A stretch of 42,157 nucleotides of DNA from contig JAFDGZ010000017.1 of the NCBI GenBank assembly GCA_019309045.1, positions 1 through 42,157 of the forward strand, given 5' to 3'. A model generated the notes under the pieces. That model was not told the DNA's origin. It ran no database searches and saw only the letters and a list, made by a program, of their open reading frames with translations. The stretch's first letter is position 1. Each line of letters starts with the position of its first letter. Source of the DNA: Deltaproteobacteria bacterium. Its GTDB lineage: Bacteria; Desulfobacterota; Syntrophobacteria; BM002. The position numbers were made by a program, and so were the translations under genes. Of this stretch, positions 15,413 to 25,533 are shown one piece after another.

Positions 15413-16714
15413 CTAGCCATTGGTCCGCTGGTCTACGATCCGACCCAGATGCTCTCGACAGGCTGCCATGCTCATTGATTCCACCAGGCGGACCCGGGCA
15501 GGTATTCCCAGCCTCTGTTCCAGCTCCTGCCGCATACGGTGCACCAGCTGCTCCAGAACCTTTATCTCATCAGAAAAATTGTCCTCATCCACCTCAATCC
15601 AGATCTCCAGCAGATCGAGCTCTTCCTGGCGCCGGACGAATCCCACATATGATGTCTTTTTCCCCTGGACCAGCTGCGAAATAATGCCTTCAATCAGACG
15701 TGGATGGATCTTTACTCCCCGAATGACCAGCTGGCTGTCAGTACGGCCGCGGCCCTGCCGCAATCTGGCAAATACCCTGCCGCAGTTGCAGCTCTCCATT
15801 GTTATGCTGCCCCTGTCTCCAGTGCGAAAACGAACAAGGGGATATGCCTGGGCTGTAAGGGTTGTCAGCACTACTTCGCCGTTTTGTTCGGCTGGTAAGA
15901 CGGCGCCGCTTTCTGGATCGATTATCTCCACAACGAAGTGGTCTTCGTTGATGTGCAAGCCGTCGTGTTCATTGCACTCATAGGCGATGCCAGGACCTGG
16001 AACCTCGCTGAGACCATAAGCTGTGTGAATATTGATGTGCAGTGAGTCTGCCAGGAAGGTCCGGGTCTTCTGGCTGAGCGTTTCTCCGAGAAGAACTGCC
16101 CGTTTGAGAGACAGGGCATTCGGATTGATGCCCATGCGGGTCATTTCTCGAATAATTTGCCTCAAATAAGAAGGAGTGGAGACAAGCACCGAGGTCTTAT
16201 AGTCGTTCATGACCATAATCTGTTTGGGTATCTCCATTACGGTCATAGGTATCACAGAGGCTTGCATGGCCTCGGCCCCATCTTTGAATTCTCTGGCCCA
16301 ATCTGCCAGACCAGGATCAAAACAGATCTGGATTATATCTTCAGGGCCCACCCCTGCTCCGCAGAGACAACGGGCCACAAGTTCCTTCCAAACTTTGAGG
16401 TCTTTCCTGGTATAGCCACTCACTGTTGGCCGCACATCCGTGCCGGTGGTGCTGTGTATCCGCACTATATCCCGCAACGGTACTGCAAAGAGCCCGTAAG
16501 GATAGTTCATACTGAGATCGTCCCGGCTGGTAAGGGGAAGGCGGCTCAGATCTTCCAGGCTGCGGAAGTGCGAAGGTTCAACTCCCACCTGCTCGAAGCG
16601 ATTATGATAGAAAGGAACGTTTCTGTATGCCCTGTTCAGCGTTGCCTGCAGTCGTTCCAGTTGCAGTTGCACCAGATCTTCTCTGGGCTGGCATTCCATT
16701 TGTTTATTCCACAT
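15413..16714 (-). CDS. Phenylacetate-CoA ligase family protein, divergent copy
   Basis: PaaK-type enzymes activate aryl acids such as phenylacetate to their CoA thioesters with ATP. The product aligns throughout with the second copy at 22204-23505: it shares the LVQLQLERLQATLNRAYRNVPFY start, the AYGLSE motif, HINEDHF and RQGRGRTDSQLVIRGVKI. The nucleotide loop, SSGTTGKPT in the other copy, here reads TTGTDVRPT, so the conserved Gly-Lys is gone. It may therefore be weak, altered in substrate or inactive. The ATG at 16714 is chosen; the frame stays open to a TTG inside livF. It overlaps the livF stop by no more than a few codons and is the last gene of the liv cluster. The length of about 433 residues is normal. 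Confidence 0.88.
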   Translation of the reverse strand: MWNKQMECQPREDLVQLQLERLQATLNRAYRNVPFYHNRFEQVGVEPSHFRSLEDLSRLPLTSRDDLSMNYPYGLFAVPLRDIVRIHSTTGTDVRPTVSGYTRKDLKVWKELVARCLCGAGVGPEDIIQICFDPGLADWAREFKDGAEAMQASVIPMTVMEIPKQIMVMNDYKTSVLVSTPSYLRQIIREMTRMGINPNALSLKRAVLLGETLSQKTRTFLADSLHINIHTAYGLSEVPGPGIAYECNEHDGLHINEDHFVVEIIDPESGAVLPAEQNGEVVLTTLTAQAYPLVRFRTGDRGSITMESCNCGRVFARLRQGRGRTDSQLVIRGVKIHPRLIEGIISQLVQGKKTSYVGFVRRQEELDLLEIWIEVDEDNFSDEIKVLEQLVHRMRQELEQRLGIPARVRLVESMSMAACREHLGRIVDQRTNG

Positions 16715-16724
16715 AGGCACCTTG

Positions 16725-17465
16725 TCACCTTCCTTCTGCAAACTCCCTGTAGTCTTTGCCCAGGTAGGCCCTCTTCACCTCACTGTCCTCCAACAGTTCC
16801 GAACCGGTTCCTTCCAGAATCACCCTTCCTGTCTCCAGGACATAACCCCGATCTGCAATATTCAAGGCGGCCCGGGCATTCTGTTCCACAATCAGGATGG
16901 TGATTCCCTCATCACGCAAGCGCACGATCGTTCGCAGTATCTCTGCAGTCACCAGGGGGGCCAGTCCCATAGATGGCTCATCCAACAGAAGCATTTTAGG
17001 CCGGGCCATGAGCGCTCTGCTGATGGCAAGCATCTGTTGCTCTCCCCCAGAAAGGGTGCCCGAGACCTGATCTCTTCTCTCGGCAAGAGTGGGGAACAGA
17101 GTGAACACCATATCCAGATCCTCAAAGATCCTCGCTTTGTCTCGCTTCTTGAAGCGCACATAGGCGCCAAGCTCCAGGTTTTCCAGCACAGTCAAAGGAT
17201 GGAAGATAAGTCTGCCCTCCGGCACCTGGCTTATGCCCAGCCGCACCACACTCTCAGGGGAGCGATTGTTGAGGCGAATCCCTTCGAAGAAGATATCCCC
17301 ATGAGTCGGCGTGAGAATGCCAGAAATACTGTTCAGTATGGTACTCTTGCCAGCACCGTTGGCTCCAATGAGCGCCACGATCTCACCCGGCCTGACAGAA
17401 AGAGAAATATTGTCCAGAGCCCTAATGCGGCCGTAGAAGGTCTGCAGATTTCGAATCCTAAGCAA
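16725..17465 (-). CDS. livF: Branched-chain/aromatic amino-acid ABC transporter ATPase LivF
   Basis: This is the second ATP-binding subunit of a LIV-type ABC importer. It has Walker A GANGAGKST, the signature LSGGEQQMLAISRALM and Walker B LLLDEPSMGLAP, and it keeps the typical N-terminus LRIRNLQTFYGRIRALDNISL. The start is read as TTG at 17465 because GAGGAG lies 4 nt upstream and this matches the family N-terminus; the codon overlaps the end of livG. A TTG at 17492 would add nine residues. The length is about 246 residues, as usual. It works with LivG, LivH, LivM and the lipoprotein LivK encoded upstream. Confidence 0.95.
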   Translation of the reverse strand: MLRIRNLQTFYGRIRALDNISLSVRPGEIVALIGANGAGKSTILNSISGILTPTHGDIFFEGIRLNNRSPESVVRLGISQVPEGRLIFHPLTVLENLELGAYVRFKKRDKARIFEDLDMVFTLFPTLAERRDQVSGTLSGGEQQMLAISRALMARPKMLLLDEPSMGLAPLVTAEILRTIVRLRDEGITILIVEQNARAALNIADRGYVLETGRVILEGTGSELLEDSEVKRAYLGKDYREFAEGR

Positions 17466-18246
17466 CTGGCTCCTCTCCAAGATATGCGGCAATTACCTCA
17501 GGGTGCTGTTGGATTTCACGGGGACTTCCCTCGGCCAGCTTGCGGCCATAGTCCATTACCATTATCTCGTCACAGATATCCATGGTGAGGCTCATATCAT
17601 GCTCCACCAGCAAAATGGTAATTCCCCTCTGGCGTATACGCAGCAGCAGGCGGCCAAGGTCTGCAGTTTCGGCCGCATTCAAACCGGAGGCTGGTTCATC
17701 CAGCAGCAGAAGTTTGGGACCAACTGCCAGGGCCCTGGCAATCTCCAGCTTGCGCTGCAGACCAAAGGGTAAAGAGCCACTGGCCAGGTCTGCTTTTTCT
17801 GCCAGTTTGATGAACTCGAGGATCTCCAGAGCCTGCTGGCGAATATGCTTCTCTTCCCGGCGTGCGCTCGGCAGTCGGAAGGCAGCTCCAAGAAATCCCA
17901 CCCTCGTTCGAGGGTGAAGCCCCACCATGACGTTTTCGAGCACACTCATGTGTTCAAACAACTCAACATTCTGAAACGTCCGCGCAATGCCGTATTCGGC
18001 GACTTTGTAGGGTGCCAGTCCTTCGAGACTTCTGCCACAGAAGTAGACCTTGCCCTTGTCCGCGGGATAGACTCCGGTGAACAGGTTGAATAGAGTGGTC
18101 TTGCCAGCGCCGTTCGGACCTATAACCCCTTTTATCTGCCCACTATAGACAGAAAAAGTGACATCGTACACCGCCTGTACACCGCCGAATGACTTGCACA
18201 ACTGTTCTGTCTGCAGCAGCACCTGTTCCTGGTGTTCTCGTTCCAT
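17458..18246 (-). CDS. livG: Branched-chain/aromatic amino-acid ABC transporter ATPase LivG
   Basis: This is the first ATP-binding subunit of the LIV-type importer. It has Walker A GPNGAGKTT, the signature LPFGLQRKLEIARALA, Walker B LLLDEPASGLN and the LivG-type ILLVEHDMSLTMDICDEIMVMDYG block. The ATG at 18246 is chosen because the LivG domain starts about 10 residues later (LLQTEQLCKSFGGVQAV). GAGGAG lies 12 nt upstream, rather far. The longer frame, open to 18321, would run into livM and has no family support. The start overlaps the livM end by about 16 bp. Confidence 0.95.
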   Translation of the reverse strand: MEREHQEQVLLQTEQLCKSFGGVQAVYDVTFSVYSGQIKGVIGPNGAGKTTLFNLFTGVYPADKGKVYFCGRSLEGLAPYKVAEYGIARTFQNVELFEHMSVLENVMVGLHPRTRVGFLGAAFRLPSARREEKHIRQQALEILEFIKLAEKADLASGSLPFGLQRKLEIARALAVGPKLLLLDEPASGLNAAETADLGRLLLRIRQRGITILLVEHDMSLTMDICDEIMVMDYGRKLAEGSPREIQQHPEVIAAYLGEEPVA

Positions 18247-18262
18247 GGCGCCAATCCCCTCC

Positions 18263-19252
18263 TCAACCGTCAGAGCGGCCCGCCGTTGCCGCGCTCTGCT
18301 GCAGGCGGCGTCTACCAACAAGATCTAGCACTCCCCTGGTGAGCCCCTGGGGCATGAAAATCATCACCACCATGAGGATAGTACCGAAGATGATAATGTC
18401 GTAGTCGTGAAATACCGCCAGCACCTCGGGCAGCACTGTCAGGGTGGCCGCCCCCAGGATGGCGCCCCAGATGCTGGCCATACCGCCAATTACCACCATA
18501 GTGACCAGCTTGATGGAGAACATGAAATCGAAGGAGCTCGGGCTTATAAAGGTAACAAAATGGGCATAGAGGCTGCCTGCCACTGAAGCGTACACAGCGC
18601 TCAATACGAACACCCAGATCTTCAACTGTGCCGTTGCCACCCCGGAGGCCGCAGCTGCGGTCTCACTATCATGAATTGCGCGCAAAGCCCTTCCCACCCG
18701 GGAGTCCACTATATTGAGACTGAGGCTGATGGCACCGAGCACCACTGCCCACACCAGGTAGTAGTAGGACCAGGGGTCGTCGAGTACCAAGCCTCCCAAC
18801 CGCAGGGAGGGTATACCTACCAGACCTGAAGGGCCGCCAGTGAGCCAGGTGAACTCTTTGAAGCAAATGTGGACGATGATGCCGAAGCCTAGAGTGGCCA
18901 TGGCCAGGTAATAACCAGTAAGCTTTAGTGTGGGGATACCCACGAGCAGGGCCACCGTGACTGTCACTGCCACCGCAGCCAGCATGGCCAGCCACGGAGA
19001 CACCTGATAGGTGGCGGAAAGAATCCCAGAAGTATAGGCCCCGAGGCCGAAAAAAGCGGCGTGCCCCAGGCTGATCTGGCCAGCGTATCCCATTAATAGA
19101 TTCAGGCCAACCGCCAGCAAGGTATGAATGCCAATAAAGATGAGCACATTTAGATAATAGCGGCCTGGCAGCAGCAATGGCACTGCCGCCAGCACAACCC
19201 CGCATATGCTCACCTGCAGCCACCTGTGCTTTGCGATAATTTCCAGCCACAC
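18263..19252 (-). CDS. livM: LIV-type ABC transporter permease LivM
   Basis: This is an inner-membrane permease of the LIV family with about eight to ten hydrophobic segments over 329 residues. The hallmarks are GLNLLMGYAGQISLGHAAFFGLGAY near residue 60, YYLAMATLGFG near 130 and the cytoplasmic EAA-like loop VGRALRAIHDSETAAAASG near 215. The start is a GTG at 19252 without a strong ribosome-binding site, 43 bp after livH. The C-terminal tail is basic. The Liv operon order K-H-M-G-F is standard. Confidence 0.95.
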   Translation of the reverse strand: MWLEIIAKHRWLQVSICGVVLAAVPLLLPGRYYLNVLIFIGIHTLLAVGLNLLMGYAGQISLGHAAFFGLGAYTSGILSATYQVSPWLAMLAAVAVTVTVALLVGIPTLKLTGYYLAMATLGFGIIVHICFKEFTWLTGGPSGLVGIPSLRLGGLVLDDPWSYYYLVWAVVLGAISLSLNIVDSRVGRALRAIHDSETAAAASGVATAQLKIWVFVLSAVYASVAGSLYAHFVTFISPSSFDFMFSIKLVTMVVIGGMASIWGAILGAATLTVLPEVLAVFHDYDIIIFGTILMVVMIFMPQGLTRGVLDLVGRRRLQQSAATAGRSDG

Positions 19253-19295
19253 AACAGAGACAATGTTATTGAGGCGATTGCCTAATCGCTCGATT

Positions 19296-20180
19296 TTACA
19301 CCCTACCTGTCTCGCCTTGGCCGAGCAAACCGCTCGGTCGGATGAACAGCATGATCAGCAGGATAGCAAAGGCAATGGCGTCCTTGAATCCGGAGCTGAT
19401 GAGGCCGGCGCCCATGGCTTCCAGTATACCGAGAAGAAAACCTCCTGCAATGGATCCAGGACTGCTGCCAAGACCTCCCAGAACTGCTGCACAAAAGCCC
19501 TTGAGTCCGAGCATAGTACCCATGTCGTAGCCACACATGGTGATGGGCGCAATGACGATGCCGCCGGCCGCGCCCATGGCAGCACTCAGGCCAAAAGAGA
19601 GCAGCACCATGCGGTTTACCCCAATTCCTACCAGACAGGCACCCCTTTTGCTGAAAGAGCAGGCCCTCATAGCCTTGCCCGTGATGGTCTTTTTGTAAAA
19701 AAACTGCAAGGCAACCATTACCAGCACTGTTATGCCAAGTACCCAGAGGCTCTGAGGCGTCAGTGCGGCACCGGCGATCCTGATGGGCCTTTCACCTGTA
19801 AACGGCTGCAGCCCTAAAGAATCCTTGCCCCAGAGCATCATGGCCACGCCCCTCAGGAAAATAGAAGCGCCTACCGTAATAATTATGAGGCTGATGGCAC
19901 TGGCAGACTTCACTGGTCTGATGGCCAGCCGCTCCAGCACCATACCCACCAGTGTCACCACTGACACTGCCAGAATAAAACACAGCCACACAGGCAAGCC
20001 GTTGACTCCACTGAGGGTGATCATCACCATGGCCCCCAACATGACAAATTCGCCCTGGGCGAAATTTATCACCTCGGTGGCATTGTAGATGACGGTAAAA
20101 CCGAGAGCAATCACGGCGTAAATAGCGCCGTTGGTGATGCCCGAGATGAAATATTGCAGGATTTGGCTGCCGAGATCCAT
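19296..20180 (-). CDS. livH: LIV-type ABC transporter permease LivH
   Basis: This permease partner of LivM has 294 residues and eight or so membrane segments. The diagnostic N-terminus is QYFISGITNGAIYAVIALGFTVIYNATEVINFAQGEFVMLGA, and the EAA-like loop is KAMRACSFSKRGACLVGIGVNRM. That loop usually contains an AxxxN/D-AxxLmGI pattern; here the Lys-Arg-Gly-Ala insert is slightly unusual. The start codon is ATG, with GAGGAG about 12 nt upstream. It lies 80 bp after livK. Confidence 0.95.
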   Translation of the reverse strand: MDLGSQILQYFISGITNGAIYAVIALGFTVIYNATEVINFAQGEFVMLGAMVMITLSGVNGLPVWLCFILAVSVVTLVGMVLERLAIRPVKSASAISLIIITVGASIFLRGVAMMLWGKDSLGLQPFTGERPIRIAGAALTPQSLWVLGITVLVMVALQFFYKKTITGKAMRACSFSKRGACLVGIGVNRMVLLSFGLSAAMGAAGGIVIAPITMCGYDMGTMLGLKGFCAAVLGGLGSSPGSIAGGFLLGILEAMGAGLISSGFKDAIAFAILLIMLFIRPSGLLGQGETGRV

Positions 20181-20260
20181 TGCTGAGGTTCACTCCTCTG
20201 CTAGAATAGATTTGAGCGGCTGCTGAGAGCCGCTCTTCTCACTTGCCTGCAGAAATGCCC

Positions 20261-21430
20261 TTATTTAATAATCTGCCAATTACCCTGGACAATTTTTACC
20301 ATGACAAAGGCTTCATCCTTGTTCAAGCCGTTGTGATCCTTGGGAGAAAAGCGGAAGATCCCACTGATTCCGACATAATCTGTGATTTTTTCGATTTCAT
20401 CACGCAACCGGGCCCTGTCAGCGCCTGACACTTTCAAGGCCTGTGCCAGTATCTGCAGGCCGTCCCAGGCGTAGCCGCCAAAGCCCGAGACAGCACTATT
20501 ATATTTCGCTTCATATTCAGAGATATACTGGAGCAGCACCGCTTTCTGAGGATCATTGTCAGGAAGACTTCCAGCCACCAGAATTTTGCCGGTGGGCAGG
20601 ATAATTCCCTCGGAAGCCTTGCCCGCAAGTTCTATAAACTTCTTCGAGGCCACACCATGGCTCTGGTAGAGTGGAATGTCCATGCCAAGTTGCTTCATAT
20701 TTTTGGCCACTACTGCGGGACCTGGATTCGTTCCCCAACAAATAATGGCCTCTGGCTTGAGCCCGCGGATCTTGGTCAACTGCGGCGTCATGTCAGTATC
20801 TTTCGGTCCAAACCTTTCGTCAGCCACGATCTGGTAGCCGTAATCGGCGGCCTGCTGGAGCAATTGTTGTCTGCCGCTGTCACCGAAGGCGTTGCTGACA
20901 GTAAGAATGGCGATTTTCTTGGCGCCCTGCCCCTTGAGATAGTCGTAGATCTTGGACACTGCCATCACATCGGTCTGCGGCGTCTTGAAAACCCACTTTT
21001 TTACCGGCGTAGTAATTTTCACAGAAGCAGCGCAGGAAATGAGAGGCACCTGAGCCTTCTCGACAATCGGCACCACTGCCAGGGTCGTGCCGCTGCGCGA
21101 AGGTCCCACAATGGCAAGCACCTTATCTTTTTCTATCAGCTTGTTGGCGTTGAGCACTGCCTTTGTTGCATCACCCTCAGTGTCGTAAATGATCACCTCT
21201 AACGGATGACCATTGATGCCCCCGGCAGCGTTTATCTTTTCGGCCAGCAGCAGCATAGAATTGCGCTCCGGTTCCCCCAGAAAGGATGCAGGTCCTGTAA
21301 TGGCAAAAATTCCACCAATCCTGTACGGAGCCTTGGCCTCCTTTTTTTTGGCACAGCCGGTTGGCAGCAGGAGCAGTGCCGCCAAAATACTCAACCATAT
21401 CTTCCAAACTCTCAATCGCCCTAACTTCAT
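20261..21430 (-). CDS. livK: LIV-type ABC transporter substrate-binding lipoprotein
   Basis: This periplasmic binding protein (type I, Leu/Ile/Val family) captures the amino or aryl acid for LivHMGF. The lipobox LPTGC puts the lipidated cysteine at residue 26 after a short signal peptide, so it is a membrane-anchored lipoprotein. Family motifs are RIGGIFAITGPASFLGEPERN, AINAAGGINGHPLEVIIYDTEGD and AIVGPSRSGTTLAV. The ATG at 21430 follows GGGAGGGGGTT, a strong ribosome site; the frame is open to 21490 but that extension lacks support. The ligand cannot be assigned; flanking PaaK homologues hint at aromatic substrates. Nothing recognisable lies in the 186 bp before it. Confidence 0.93.
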   Translation of the reverse strand: MKLGRLRVWKIWLSILAALLLLPTGCAKKKEAKAPYRIGGIFAITGPASFLGEPERNSMLLLAEKINAAGGINGHPLEVIIYDTEGDATKAVLNANKLIEKDKVLAIVGPSRSGTTLAVVPIVEKAQVPLISCAASVKITTPVKKWVFKTPQTDVMAVSKIYDYLKGQGAKKIAILTVSNAFGDSGRQQLLQQAADYGYQIVADERFGPKDTDMTPQLTKIRGLKPEAIICWGTNPGPAVVAKNMKQLGMDIPLYQSHGVASKKFIELAGKASEGIILPTGKILVAGSLPDNDPQKAVLLQYISEYEAKYNSAVSGFGGYAWDGLQILAQALKVSGADRARLRDEIEKITDYVGISGIFRFSPKDHNGLNKDEAFVMVKIVQGNWQIIK

Positions 21431-21616
21431 AACCCCCTCCCTTTCTTTTCCAGCAAATCCATCTCTCTTCTTCTCCTGGGCACCCCTCATTTACTGCAAG
21501 TTCTCTGTAGACGGCACGGCAGAAAGACTCCCCATCCTTTACCCTCTGGCGGCACTTTTCCTTTGCTGCCCGCCGTCTTCCCTTCCTTGCGTCCCCGAGG
21601 AAAACCTGCCGGCGCC

Positions 21617-22048
21617 TTACATGCTGTACAGTTTCTTGCCTTCTATGACCGTAACTCCGTTTCGCCTGAGGACATCCACTGCCGCGTCTATGTCATCGAA
21701 ACGGAAAATGAGCACTGCATTCTGGCCGCTTTGCTGGACAAAGGCGTACATGTATTCCACATTGATGTGGGCCTCGAACAGTATCTGCAAGATCTTGTTG
21801 AGTCCACCAGGTTTGTCTTCGACCTCCACAGCCACCACTTCGGTTCTGCCGACTGTGAAGCCATGCTCCTTGAGTATCTCTTTTGCCTTCTCGTGATCGT
21901 TGACAATGAGCCTGAGAATGCCAAAGTCGGAAGTATCAGCCAGTGAAAGGGCGCGGATATTTATATTGCCCTGTCCAAGGATGCGGGTTACTTCGGCAAG
22001 CCTCCCTGCTTTGTTCTCGAGGAATATCGAAATTTGTTCAACTCTCAT
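21617..22048 (-). CDS. Double ACT-domain protein
   Basis: This 143-residue protein consists of two consecutive ACT domains, small modules that bind amino acids. The first starts [38 protein letters not shown], and the second starts [33 protein letters not shown]. No catalytic domain is attached, so it is probably a free sensor. Such proteins commonly sit between phenylacetate-CoA ligase and liv genes in Desulfobacterota and other anaerobes, which points to regulation or allosteric control by an amino acid. A strong AAAGGAGGAG site lies just before the ATG. Confidence 0.93.
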
Positions 22049-22203: not shown

Positions 22204-23505
22204 TCAAATCTGGCGCTTGTCAATGACCCGTACAGCCTTACCCTCACTCCGCTGGATGGTCTTGGGCTCCACCAGTTTTACTCTGGCAGACACTCCCAAC
22301 ATCTCTTTGATATTCTTCTCAAGACCGCGCTCCATGTTCTGCAGGTTTTTGATTTCGTCAGAAAATATTTTCTCGTTCACTTCCACCATGACTGTAAGAT
22401 TGTCCATGCTCCCCTCACGATCCACTACCAGTTGGTAGTGCGGCTCGATGCCTTCGGTTTCCATAATGATGCTTTCGATCTGGGAGGGAAACACATTGAC
22501 GCCCCGAATGATCAACATGTCATCGCTGCGGCCCTGCACTCTACCCATACGGACCATGGTGCGGCCGCAGCGGCATGGCTCAGGATACAACACACTGATG
22601 TCCCTGGTTCGATAACGGATGACCGGAAACGCTTCTTTGGTGATGGTAGTGAAAACCAGTTCGCCTACAGTCCCATACGGCAGTACTTCTTCTGTGTCCG
22701 GATCGATGATCTCCGGGATAAAATGGTCCTCAAAAATGTGCAAACCACTCTGTGCCTCGATACATTCCACTGAGACTCCAGGGCCAATAATCTCACTGAG
22801 TCCATAGATGTCTACTGCTTTCAAATTGAGCTTGCGCTCTATTTCCTGGCGCATGGTCTCGGACCAGGGTTCAGCTCCGAAAATTCCCGCCTTGAACTTG
22901 AGCTGTCGAAAATCGATCCCCATCTCTTCTGCCACCTCGGCAATGTAGAGGGCATAGGAAGGCGTGCAGGTGAGTATGGTAGGACCGAAATCCTTCATGA
23001 TCATTACCTGGCGTTTGGTATTGCCACCGGAGATAGGAATGACCGAGGCCCCGAGCTTCTCTGCGCCGTAGTGAAAGCCCAATCCTCCAGTAAAGAGTCC
23101 ATAGCCATAAGCATTGTGAATGATATCCCCCTTGGTGGCGCCTCCTGCCATGAGAGTCCGGGCCATGAGCTCGGACCAGGTTTGCACATCCCTGGCAGTG
23201 TAGCCCACCACCGTTGGCTTGCCAGTGGTGCCAGAAGAGGCGTGAATCCGCACCACATTGTCCATGGGCACCGAGAACATGCCAAAAGGATAATTCTGCC
23301 GCAGATCCTCTTTGTAGGTGAAGGGAAGCTTGCCAAGATCCTCCAGAGACTGGATATGCTCCGGCTTGACCCCGGCTTCGTCAAATCGCTTGCGGTAAAA
23401 CGGCACGGTGTTGTAGACTCTCGAGACCGTGTTCTGCAGCCTCCGCAGCTGGATGGCTTCCAGCGCCTCCCTCGGCATTGTTTCGTACTCTTCGTTGTAG
23501 ATCAT
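22204..23505 (-). CDS. Phenylacetate-CoA ligase (canonical copy)
   Basis: This enzyme activates phenylacetate or a related aryl acid to the CoA ester using ATP. The 433-residue product has the full PaaK set: the N-terminal [25 protein letters not shown], the nucleotide loop [51 protein letters not shown] and the C-terminal [20 protein letters not shown]. The Gly-Lys of the loop is intact, in contrast to the copy at 15413. A GAGGAGGAGGG ribosome site lies just before the ATG. It is the first gene of the ligase-ACT-livKHMGF-ligase series. In anaerobes this activity pairs with arylpyruvate:ferredoxin oxidoreductase, either degrading or rebuilding aromatic amino acids; that partner is not in the window. 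Confidence 0.93.
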
Positions 23506-23665: not shown

Positions 23666-24127
23666 TCACCGCCACTGCTTCTGTCCCTTCCCAGGATGTC
23701 GCCAGAATTCATTCGCCCACAGAGGATCGTAGATGCGCCTAACTCCATGCACAACAACCATGGGGGCATATTCCTCCTCGGAGGCTTCGTGATACAACCT
23801 GTCCACTGTCATAAGGGTGCCGAGCAAGAAGCCGTGCTTCTCGAATGCCTGCCTGCTGTAAGCCGAGCAGGTAGGATAGCTGGGGCAGCGATTGCCATCT
23901 ACTGGTGATATAACCTTTTGAAAGAATCTGACCAGGGAGGAAAAGAACTTGGCAGGCAGGGACCATGCTGGCCGCATCTGCTGCCCGCTTCTACTGTGAA
24001 CAACTTCACTTTGTTGGCTCCACGGCCCTCTCATAGTGTCAGCCGTGGCCACATCAGTTGCTGCCTGAATCGAGAGGACAGCCAAAACCAAGATCAGCAT
24101 CAGCCACAACCGTCCCGGAGCTGTCAT
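23666..24127 (-). CDS. yidD: YidD-type membrane protein insertion factor with N-terminal signal-like segment
   Basis: YidD is a small protein that helps YidC insert inner-membrane proteins. The family core is at about residues 55-130: LVRFFQKVISPVDGNRCPSYPTCSAYSRQAFEKHG, with the conserved cysteines and the PTCSxYS motif, then a GVRRIYDPLW tail. YidD usually has 70-90 residues and starts at its own amphipathic helix. This product has about 153 and begins with a hydrophobic stretch (LWLMLILVLAVLSIQAATDVATA) resembling a signal peptide or anchor, plus a linker. The ATG at 24127 has an ideal AAGGAGG site 6 nt upstream. It follows the TPR/membrane gene by 11 bp. Confidence 0.88.
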   Translation of the reverse strand: MTAPGRLWLMLILVLAVLSIQAATDVATADTMRGPWSQQSEVVHSRSGQQMRPAWSLPAKFFSSLVRFFQKVISPVDGNRCPSYPTCSAYSRQAFEKHGFLLGTLMTVDRLYHEASEEEYAPMVVVHGVRRIYDPLWANEFWRHPGKGQKQWR

Positions 24128-24138
24128 TGTCAGCCTCC

Positions 24139-25122
24139 TTAAAATGAATAACTGAAAGCCACCAGCCACGACTCACCGCCCCTGATCTGGAGACCCAGGC
24201 GTTCGAAGGGCACCAGCCTCTGACGGATTCGCAGTTGCTGACGATCATTGAACTTGTGGGCCACGTTCACCGCACTGAAGATGTTGCCCGCGTAGAAGGC
24301 CAGGGTAACCAGGCCCAGACCGATTCCCAGTTCCTGATGGCCCTGCCTGAAGGCTTCCCAGGTAGCCAGGCCAAAGCCGCCTGTATAAAGAAAGGCCAGC
24401 AGGCCGTCTTTGGGTCGCTCACAGTACAGGTGGCCTGAACCCGGGACAAGAGCGGCCATAATGCCGGCGCCAGTGGGACTCTTTCGCTTCATCTGCGAAG
24501 CTTCGTGCAAGACTTTTTGTAGACTTTGCCCTCTGTCAAACAGTGGACTGCGGCTGCCTATTTCGGCCAGAGCCCTCTGCGCCTCTGGCCAGCGACTTTC
24601 CCTGGCATAGGTAAGCGCTGTCAGATACCAGGCTTCTGAAGAAATCTCCTCGTCCGTGCTGGAGTCAATGACCATGTGCAGTTCCTGCCTGGCCGCCTCG
24701 CCTTGCTGCAGTTCCATGAAACATCGGGCTTTGAGGAAATACCCCTGCCAGCGCAATGGCTGCTCACCATAAGCAAGCAGGAACTGTTCCACTGCTGTCA
24801 GGGCCTGCTGCCATTTTCCCCCGCCATAATAGCATTCAGCTATGCGCAAAGAAGCATGGGGTGCCCGGGGATGCTGGGGTGCAAGAAAAAGAAAACGCTG
24901 GTATTCGCTGATGGCTCGGTAGTATTCCTCTTTAGAAAAAAGGTGGTCGGCAAATTGCAGAATCTTATCAGCTGCAAGATTTGTCCTCCCTTGCGAAGAA
25001 GCTGCCCACGACGGGGAAACCCAAAGGGAAACAAGAAGGCAGCTGATCAGCATTGTCGCCAGCAGTGGGCTGCTCGACCGTCTCAAACCACCGTCTTCAG
25101 GGAACGCAGCAAGCAACAGCAT
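24139..25122 (-). CDS. TPR-repeat protein with C-terminal small membrane domain, paired with yidD
   Basis: The product is a secreted or membrane protein of about 327 residues. A signal-like segment (LLATMLISCLLVSLWVSPSWA) leads. Tetratricopeptide-type repeats follow at about residues 50-200 (FSKEEYYRAISEYQRFLFLAP, ASLRIAECYYGGGKWQQAL). The C-terminal part, ALVPGSGHLYCERPKDGLLAFLYTGGFGLATWEAF, resembles the PGxGxxY motif of small TM2/DUF5683-type membrane proteins, with two hydrophobic helices. Its function is unknown; tight pairing with yidD suggests membrane protein biogenesis. The start at 25122 is chosen for GAGGG 5 nt upstream. The ATG at 25218 cannot be right because it lies inside the attenuator terminator; 25152 is possible. 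Confidence 0.78.
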   Translation of the reverse strand: MLLLAAFPEDGGLRRSSSPLLATMLISCLLVSLWVSPSWAASSQGRTNLAADKILQFADHLFSKEEYYRAISEYQRFLFLAPQHPRAPHASLRIAECYYGGGKWQQALTAVEQFLLAYGEQPLRWQGYFLKARCFMELQQGEAARQELHMVIDSSTDEEISSEAWYLTALTYARESRWPEAQRALAEIGSRSPLFDRGQSLQKVLHEASQMKRKSPTGAGIMAALVPGSGHLYCERPKDGLLAFLYTGGFGLATWEAFRQGHQELGIGLGLVTLAFYAGNIFSAVNVAHKFNDRQQLRIRQRLVPFERLGLQIRGGESWLVAFSYSF

Positions 25123-25207
25123 CTTTTCCCTCACCGCCATCCTCGGTTTCATCTGCTGCCTGTGAACGAAAAAACCGCAGATTCTGGCGAACCCACGGCC
25201 TGCAAAC

Positions 25208-25246
25208 AAAAAAGCCATGAGCCCGTTGTCGTCCGCCCATGGCCTT
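25208..25246 (-). terminator. Attenuator terminator hairpin (arms 3 and 4)
   Basis: In minus-strand RNA AAGGCCATGGGC (25246-25235) pairs with GCTCATGGCUUU (25222-25211) as a 12-bp stem with two G-U wobbles. The loop is 12 nt and a U tract follows (TTT, G, TTT, 25210-25204). The wobbles become A-C mismatches in plus-strand RNA, so the structure is minus-strand specific. It precedes the TPR-yidD genes. Confidence 0.85.
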
Positions 25247-25316
25247 CGATGTCCGTTTTCCTGCTACCGGCCTCCTCTTACAACCAGCGGGCGGACTTCT
25301 AAAAAAAGAAGCCGCC
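25211..25316 (-). promoter_or_regulatory. Phenylalanine-type transcription attenuator (alternative RNA structures)
   Basis: Four segments of minus-strand RNA can pair alternatively. Segment 1, GGCGGCTTC (25316-25308), covers the last Gly-Gly-Phe codons of the leader ORF and pairs with segment 2, GAAGTCCGCC (from 25299), with one bulged base and an 8-nt loop. Segment 2 can instead pair through GTCCGCCC (25296-25289) with segment 3, GGGCGGAC (25238-25231), 8 bp perfect. Segment 3 overlaps the left arm of the terminator by four bases (25238-25235), so 2:3 and the terminator exclude each other. A ribosome stalled at the terminal Phe codons would mask segment 1, free 2 to hold 3 and allow read-through. 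This is the E. coli pheL/pheM logic. The sequence elements are seen; the function is inferred. Confidence 0.8.
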
Positions 25317-25358
25317 AAAAAGGAAGTGAATGCGGAAACCGACGAAACTCTCTCGCAT
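25299..25358 (-). CDS. Phe-rich leader peptide (19 aa)
   Basis: This tiny ORF encodes MRESFVGFRIHFLFGGFFF, with seven phenylalanines in 19 residues and three in a row before the TAG stop. An ideal GGAGG lies 5 nt before the ATG. Both TTC and TTT codons are used, so the run is not simple T-slippage. The composition resembles the pheA and pheST leader peptides of enterobacteria, in which charged tRNA-Phe supply sets ribosome position. It lies about 20 nt after the expected transcription start and ends where the first hairpin begins. It is probably a control element with no function as a protein. Confidence 0.82.
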   Translation of the reverse strand: MRESFVGFRIHFLFGGFFF

Positions 25359-25386
25359 GGCATCCTCCCGCTCTTGTTGCCTAGGC

Positions 25387-25415
25387 AGGGTATAAGAGAT
25401 CAATCTCCTTGTCAA
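25387..25415 (-). promoter_or_regulatory. Sigma-70 promoter of the Phe attenuator leader
   Basis: TTGACA (25415-25410) and TACCCT (25392-25387) are 17 bp apart on the minus strand; TATACC (25394-25389) is an overlapping alternative -10 with a 15-bp spacer. Transcription would begin near 25380, about 20 nt before the leader ORF. The rest of the gap to the stop of the upstream TPR gene (25416-25533) shows nothing else. Confidence 0.65.
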
Positions 25416-25533
25416 GTTCATTTTCGCTGGGTTTCCACGCCTGAACGTCTCTTGCCTGGAGACGACTACAGCAGGAAAAGCGCCCTTCAACTCCACTTTC
25501 CAGAACCAGGCAACAGGGCTTGCCACAGGTCCG

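Follow-up and report, generated by a model that had tools for sequence, protein, structure and literature searches.

The closest described systems are the enteric Phe leaders of pheA and pheST. Like the element reported here, they combine a Phe-rich peptide, mutually exclusive 1:2, 2:3 and 3:4 helices and an intrinsic terminator, and charging of tRNA-Phe is sensed. In attenuators of the leader-peptide kind in general, antitermination requires that the 2:3 helix form before the 3:4 helix. The Trp, Leu, His and Thr leader families of Rfam share this mechanism and differ from our element in regulatory codons and target (PMC3766115). In 2013, Phe attenuators were not represented in Rfam, and such motifs were thought possibly to have arisen in gamma-proteobacteria (PMC3766115).

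We analyzed a 42,157-nucleotide stretch of contig JAFDGZ010000017.1 (the window), for which the original prediction proposed a Phe leader-peptide transcription attenuator. Anatomy, conservation and covariation agree with that proposal, and the element is shared by sulfate-reducing and syntrophic relatives. Unlike the pheA and pheST leaders, the window element precedes paaK-ACT-liv genes, here with a TPR gene and yidD in front, and it has no Rfam match. Rfam searches gave no covariance match above the gathering threshold in the window, and no relevant family was found in the relatives at the gathering and E-value thresholds. We consider the element very probably a Phe leader-peptide attenuator with paaK-ACT-liv as its target.

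Anatomy of the leader

The attenuator region covers 25415-25208 on the minus strand and holds, in order, TTGACA, a weak -10 box, GGAGG, the Phe ORF and three helices. As shown in Table 1, the promoter, the GGAGG site, the 19-residue ORF with seven Phe and the 1:2, 2:3 and 3:4 helices of the original prediction were all located. The TTGACA box is present as claimed, at 25415-25410, one base away from the start first given for it. The -35/-10 spacer in the window is 15 bp.

The duplex energy of the 1:2 hairpin is -14.9 kcal/mol. The antiterminator pairs 25296-25289 with 25238-25231 over a core of 8 bp and can be extended to 14 bp by CUGGUU/GGCC pairing when segment 1 is hidden. The terminator arms pair 25246-25235 with 25224-25213, followed by the T tract (25213-25208). 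As predicted, GGGC at 25238-25235 is common to antiterminator and terminator. The terminator hairpin is 12-13 bp long in the window, lies upstream of the first structural gene and is conserved in relatives. The mechanical ATG of the TPR gene at 25218 falls inside this terminator and is unlikely to be the start. Neither the window promoter nor the terminator appears in the generic promoter/terminator scan listing; the terminator is missing because its loop exceeds the limit of the scan.

A second terminator-like hairpin with a T tract, also conserved, lies at 25172..25201 on the minus strand, so that a tandem terminator stands directly after the attenuator. In the window's family we also considered a pseudoknot CCAGAGG/CCUCUGG with GCCGGCUU/AAGCCGGU. 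It was dropped: the second pairing falls within the long covarying 1:2 hairpin (helix 1) and CUGGUU pairs within the extended antiterminator, so the extra fold is unneeded.

Table 1. Positions of the leader elements and of the genes behind them in the window.
Feature	Position	Strand	Basis or remark
-35 box TTGACA	25410..25415	-	sequence; family consensus TTGACAA, kept in relatives
-10 box TATACC, weak in window	25389..25394	-	sequence; close relatives have TATAAT
Shine-Dalgarno GGAGG	25364..25368	-	sequence
Leader peptide ORF MRESFVGFRIHFLFGGFFF followed by stop, 7 Phe in 19 codons	25299..25358	-	coding tests
Segment 1, 5' arm of 1:2 protector hairpin, overlapping GGFF codons	25307..25316	-	folding and covariation
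Segment 2, 3' arm of 1:2 hairpin	25290..25300	-	folding and covariation
GTCCGCCC, within/at segment 2, doubles as antiterminator 5' arm	25289..25296	-	folding and covariation
Segment 3 GGGCGGAC, antiterminator 3' arm, overlaps terminator 5' arm at GGGC	25231..25238	-	folding, segment-swap test
3:4 intrinsic terminator AAGGCCATGGGC / GGGCTCATGGCTT and T tract	25208..25246	-	folding, covariation
TPR protein gene	24139..25151	-	start near 25151 likelier
yidD	23666..24169	-	PF01809 and TIGR00278
paaK1, phenylacetate-CoA ligase, probable main target	22204..23505	-	TIGR02155 just above cut-off; leader directly before its orthologues
ACT-domain-like small protein	21617..22048	-	adjoins paaK1 in 80/80 named loci
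livK-livH-livM-livG-livF, branched-chain-type amino-acid ABC transporter	16725..21490	-	
paaK2, second PaaK-like ligase, end of gene cluster	15413..16741	-	TIGR02155, below cut-off

Coding, folding and covariation

Among the 76 short ORFs of the window that are preceded by a Shine-Dalgarno site, the leader has 37% Phe and the next most Phe-rich ORF 12.5%. In 55 leaders from relatives, Phe codons number 357 of 1468 (24%), compared with 214 expected from dinucleotide shuffles and with 176 and 146 in the two alternative frames; the in-frame TTY:TTR ratio is 357:24. Since the leader ORF was picked as the most Phe/Tyr-rich one preceded by a Shine-Dalgarno site, these counts are biased upward, though hardly to the degree seen. 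The leader peptides diverge between families and retain Phe and the Shine-Dalgarno site. One leader (genome G002, L004/L120) is without a normal ATG and stop for the peptide. In the window leader the stop codon has shifted and yet still lies inside the 1:2 loop.

The fold of the leader is lower in energy than that of shuffled sequences (z = -2.1; 3 of 200 shuffles as low). In competitive folding, RNA from the ORF through segment 3 folds as the 1:2 hairpin. RNA starting where a ribosome stalled at the GGFFF codons would leave it, and so freed from segment 1, folds as 2:3. When segment 4 is present, the thermodynamic minimum is always 3:4; thus antitermination depends on 2:3 forming first. The pairings therefore compete, as had been supposed.

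For the antiterminator, segments were swapped between sequences; the 2:3 helix was outside the structure used for alignment. Within a sequence 8.6 of 9 positions are paired, compared with 8.03 between sequences, and 0 of 20000 permutations were as good. Exchanges are CG or TA at position 4, GC, AT or TA at position 5, and TA or CG at position 2. The 1:2 and 3:4 helices together are 86.4% paired, with a covariation of 0.370 compared with 0.189 for shuffled and 0.057-0.142 for slid controls; here the alignment was fitted to that structure. Relatedness partly remains in the controls of both tests. All three mutually exclusive helices covary, and the relatives thus hold both the Phe codons and the complementary stem changes by which the proposal could be judged. 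Every sequence-testable defining feature of a leader-peptide attenuator is present at this locus, and the regulation itself is predicted.

These data also bear on the alternative that the element is a metabolite-binding riboswitch or another structured RNA, with the Phe-rich ORF an accident of U-rich loops. GCCGGUA and CUGGUUG are highly conserved within the window's family, and Rfam holds no family for the element, both of which would suit such an RNA. Against it, Phe codons exceed the shuffles and the other frames and TTY far outnumbers TTR, the peptides diverge between families while Phe and the Shine-Dalgarno site stay, and the conserved CUGGUU is accounted for by the extended antiterminator. 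Leaders of the same style for Tyr, Trp and Leu also stand before matching genes (see below). We regard a riboswitch as extremely unlikely.

Spread among relatives and the genes behind the leader

Ten further genomes of the window's family have an orthologue of the TPR gene, and in six of the ten it carries the same leader. These six leaders carry the promoter TTGACAA/TATAAT and the second terminator-like hairpin. In the other four (L006, L007, L008, L011) the part of the leader from promoter to antiterminator is deleted or replaced and one or both terminator hairpins remain before the TPR gene; in L006 and L007 this part is deleted and the terminators are kept. Such losses, together with the weak -10 box of the window, would be expected if the switch were decayed or stranded and functionless in the window's genome. 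In the window, nevertheless, every pairing is kept, as are the Phe codons and the genes downstream, and the moved stop codon is still within the 1:2 loop. The original prediction had offered stranding by rearrangement as one reading. It finds no support because the order paaK-ACT-livKHMGF-paaK2 is still intact behind the leader, and we judge a dead switch highly improbable.

With a first covariance model, based on seven leaders, the element was detected in many further families of the phylum. A second model (R2), based on 26 sequences, was run against the genome of the window itself, 395 phylum genomes and 80 named paaK loci. It matched 124 of the 395 genomes with E at most 0.01, unvetted weak matches included. 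Many weak matches below about 45 bits resemble other attenuators or plain terminators and were left out of the element counts. The 80 named loci are from Thermodesulfobacteriota, including Desulfacinum, Desulforhabdus and Desulfoferrobacter. The element was matched at 43 of them, in all 43 upstream of paaK and on the paaK strand; three of these matches (L117, L119, L122) are remnants of partly deleted leaders. One extra weak minus-strand match sits in a paaK locus that already carries a leader. Cultured hosts of the element are Desulfacinum infernum, which belongs to the class Syntrophobacteria, D. hydrothermale, Desulforhabdus and Desulfoferrobacter. The TPR protein, used as a direct query against the named genomes, found nothing. 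A simple count of Phe ORFs in the 420 nt before paaK misses the window's family because the TPR gene intervenes there.

In most relatives the leader stands directly before paaK1-ACT-livKHMGF(-paaK2), and TPR and yidD are absent. Only the window's family and one near family (L124, L125) have a TPR gene, with or without a recognisable yidD, separating leader and paaK. Among named loci with enough flank, and with kinship ignored, the leader accompanies 37 of the 45 paaK loci that are linked to liv, compared with 3 of 27 paaK-ACT loci without liv. Some leader loci have no liv near paaK (L118, L133, L169). In other families similar Phe leaders stand before DAHP synthase, so that the same regulatory amino acid goes with phenylacetate-CoA ligase here and with DAHP synthase elsewhere. 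Upstream of an aroF Phe leader, L046:1103-1225 and L050:1133-1225 gave weak model matches with a terminator-like hairpin only and no regulatory ORF.

Since the leader elsewhere directly precedes paaK-ACT-liv or DAHP synthase, the regulated function of the operon is most likely Phe supply, with TPR and yidD as mere neighbours. The alternative, that Phe governs envelope functions through TPR and yidD while paaK and liv have promoters of their own, draws on TPR being the first gene after the leader in the window's family and on the TPR-YidD arrangement of the nearby family. It is very unlikely: elsewhere the leader directly precedes paaK with TPR and yidD absent, TPR homologues of other families (L012-L016) have no recognisable leader, and the presence of the leader tracks liv linkage. 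Of the three readings first offered, the one that the gene order in relatives supports is read-through into the genes for the aryl-acid ligase and the liv transporter. Control of membrane biogenesis as the main role is unsupported because the occurrence of the leader goes with paaK rather than with TPR/yidD, and stranding fell away as described above.

Sister leaders and metabolic direction

The window's genome also carries a Tyr leader, MIYHSGQIPTRGYYCYYYARETSVH, before livKHMGF-paaK3-iorA-iorB (L105, G000:C3:28000-46000; leader at G000:C3:44425-44584, minus strand), and the identities of IorA and IorB in this operon were confirmed. Twelve genomes, from three families, have a Tyr-rich leader before the same liv-paaK3 genes, and these leaders contain 61 Tyr among 284 residues. 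In 11 of the 12, iorAB follows liv-paaK3; in L234 it lies some kilobases further on. Thus transporter, arylacetate-CoA ligase and arylpyruvate oxidoreductase are all in the Tyr-leader operon, in the window's genome and in related ones. The Phe-leader paaK1 operon is without iorAB. Five iorAB loci without liv (L235, L237, L239, L242, L243) gave no covariance-model match. The IorA model matched in 60 of the 60 nearest genomes, in 51 above the cut-off.

We propose the following mechanism. When Phe is plentiful, the ribosome would pass the Phe codons, with segment 2 either held in the 1:2 hairpin or covered by the ribosome. The 3:4 helix would then form and RNA polymerase would stop at the T tract. 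When charged tRNA-Phe is scarce, the ribosome would stall at the Phe codons over segment 1 and 2:3 would form first, with read-through of TPR and yidD into paaK1-ACT-livKHMGF-paaK2. Liv would take up either an aryl acid or an aromatic amino acid. PaaK, a ligase of the AMP-forming type, would make arylacetyl-CoA. The oxidoreductase encoded by iorAB of the sister Tyr operon would carboxylate arylacetyl-CoA to arylpyruvate, which would be transaminated to the amino acid.

The same attenuator could serve an operon that imports Phe or Phe peptides through Liv, with PaaK and ACT in a different role, for example the activation of aryl acids for other purposes. In its favour, amino acids are the cargo of Liv-type transporters, and the leader tracks the liv genes (37/45 compared with 3/27). 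On the other side, paaK adjoins the leader in most families, three leader loci (L118, L133, L169) have no liv near paaK, and liv and paaK are coupled to iorAB in the Tyr operon. We hold Phe import to be possible and rather unlikely.

A catabolic role is often assigned to PaaK and Ior. Production of PaaK, Liv and Ior under a shortage of Phe or Tyr would argue for synthesis, and the paaK1 operon probably serves Phe supply. We therefore lean, with reservation, towards an anabolic aryl-acid role for the operon. Shikimate-pathway genes are also present in the window's genome, which would make the aryl-acid route an additional one. On a wider scale, and with a similar degree of reserve, we favour the view that a Phe/Tyr regulon of attenuated aryl-acid assimilation operons (Liv, PaaK, IorAB) operates in Syntrophobacteria and related Thermodesulfobacteriota. 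Through these operons, arylacetates from the environment would be reductively carboxylated to yield Phe and Tyr, and paaK, ior and liv would be biosynthetic there, though they are usually annotated as catabolic.

There are precedents for such a direction. An aryl-acid route to aromatic amino acids via indolepyruvate oxidoreductase has been reported for Methanococcus maripaludis (as cited in PMC4162585), and formation of Phe from phenylacetate for rumen microbes (as cited in PMC7356843). The logic proposed here, by which aryl acid and Ior give an aromatic amino acid as a second pathway, is that of the M. maripaludis route as PMC4162585 cites it. The differences are that the host there is an archaeon, and that the route proposed here would run in bacteria, with a ligase of the PaaK type, a Liv transporter and control by a leader peptide. 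In another system, iorAB with an ADP-forming acyl-CoA synthetase was read as aromatic amino-acid fermentation (PMC5817080). It also pairs iorAB with an acyl-CoA enzyme, but here the partner is a PaaK-type ligase and the operon is under an amino-acid attenuator, and this speaks for the reverse direction. The literature searched contains no report of a Phe attenuator, an aryl-acid route or such a regulon in these bacteria; most subscription journals lie outside it, for example the 2010 attenuation survey by Lopatovskaya and co-workers (cited in PMC4833913), which might mention some leaders.

The switch is classical, and its wiring is informative: attenuation by charged tRNA-Phe or tRNA-Tyr would show that the operons are wanted when the amino acid is short. 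A recurrent annotation puzzle, in which paaK, ior and liv clusters of sulfate reducers and syntrophs are read as aromatic degradation or branched-chain amino-acid uptake, would thereby become a testable claim of biosynthesis.

Further leaders were found in the window's genome. A Trp leader, MSELSKEIVAYFNWRWWWCTKGGVYPPPGP, stands before a trpE-led trp operon (L084/L108, G000:C27:19869-20028, minus strand), and a Leu-rich leader, MQQLRQRAELLSAELLLLSSLLGLCGPPIALRVR, before a 2-isopropylmalate synthase-like gene, leuA (L083, G000:C30:32517-32681, plus strand). Versions for Phe, Tyr, Trp and Leu occur in this single genome, and leader-peptide attenuation is extended to Thermodesulfobacteriota, with an RNA family that is absent from Rfam. 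A YYYFFF leader precedes a shikimate kinase-like gene (L082/L106, G000:C37:13391-13521, plus strand), behind which are a DHQ synthase II-like gene and an aroA-like gene. In another genome (L109, G074:C23), a YYFGWFYY leader stands before an archaeal-type ADH synthase-like gene and an apparently full shikimate operon.
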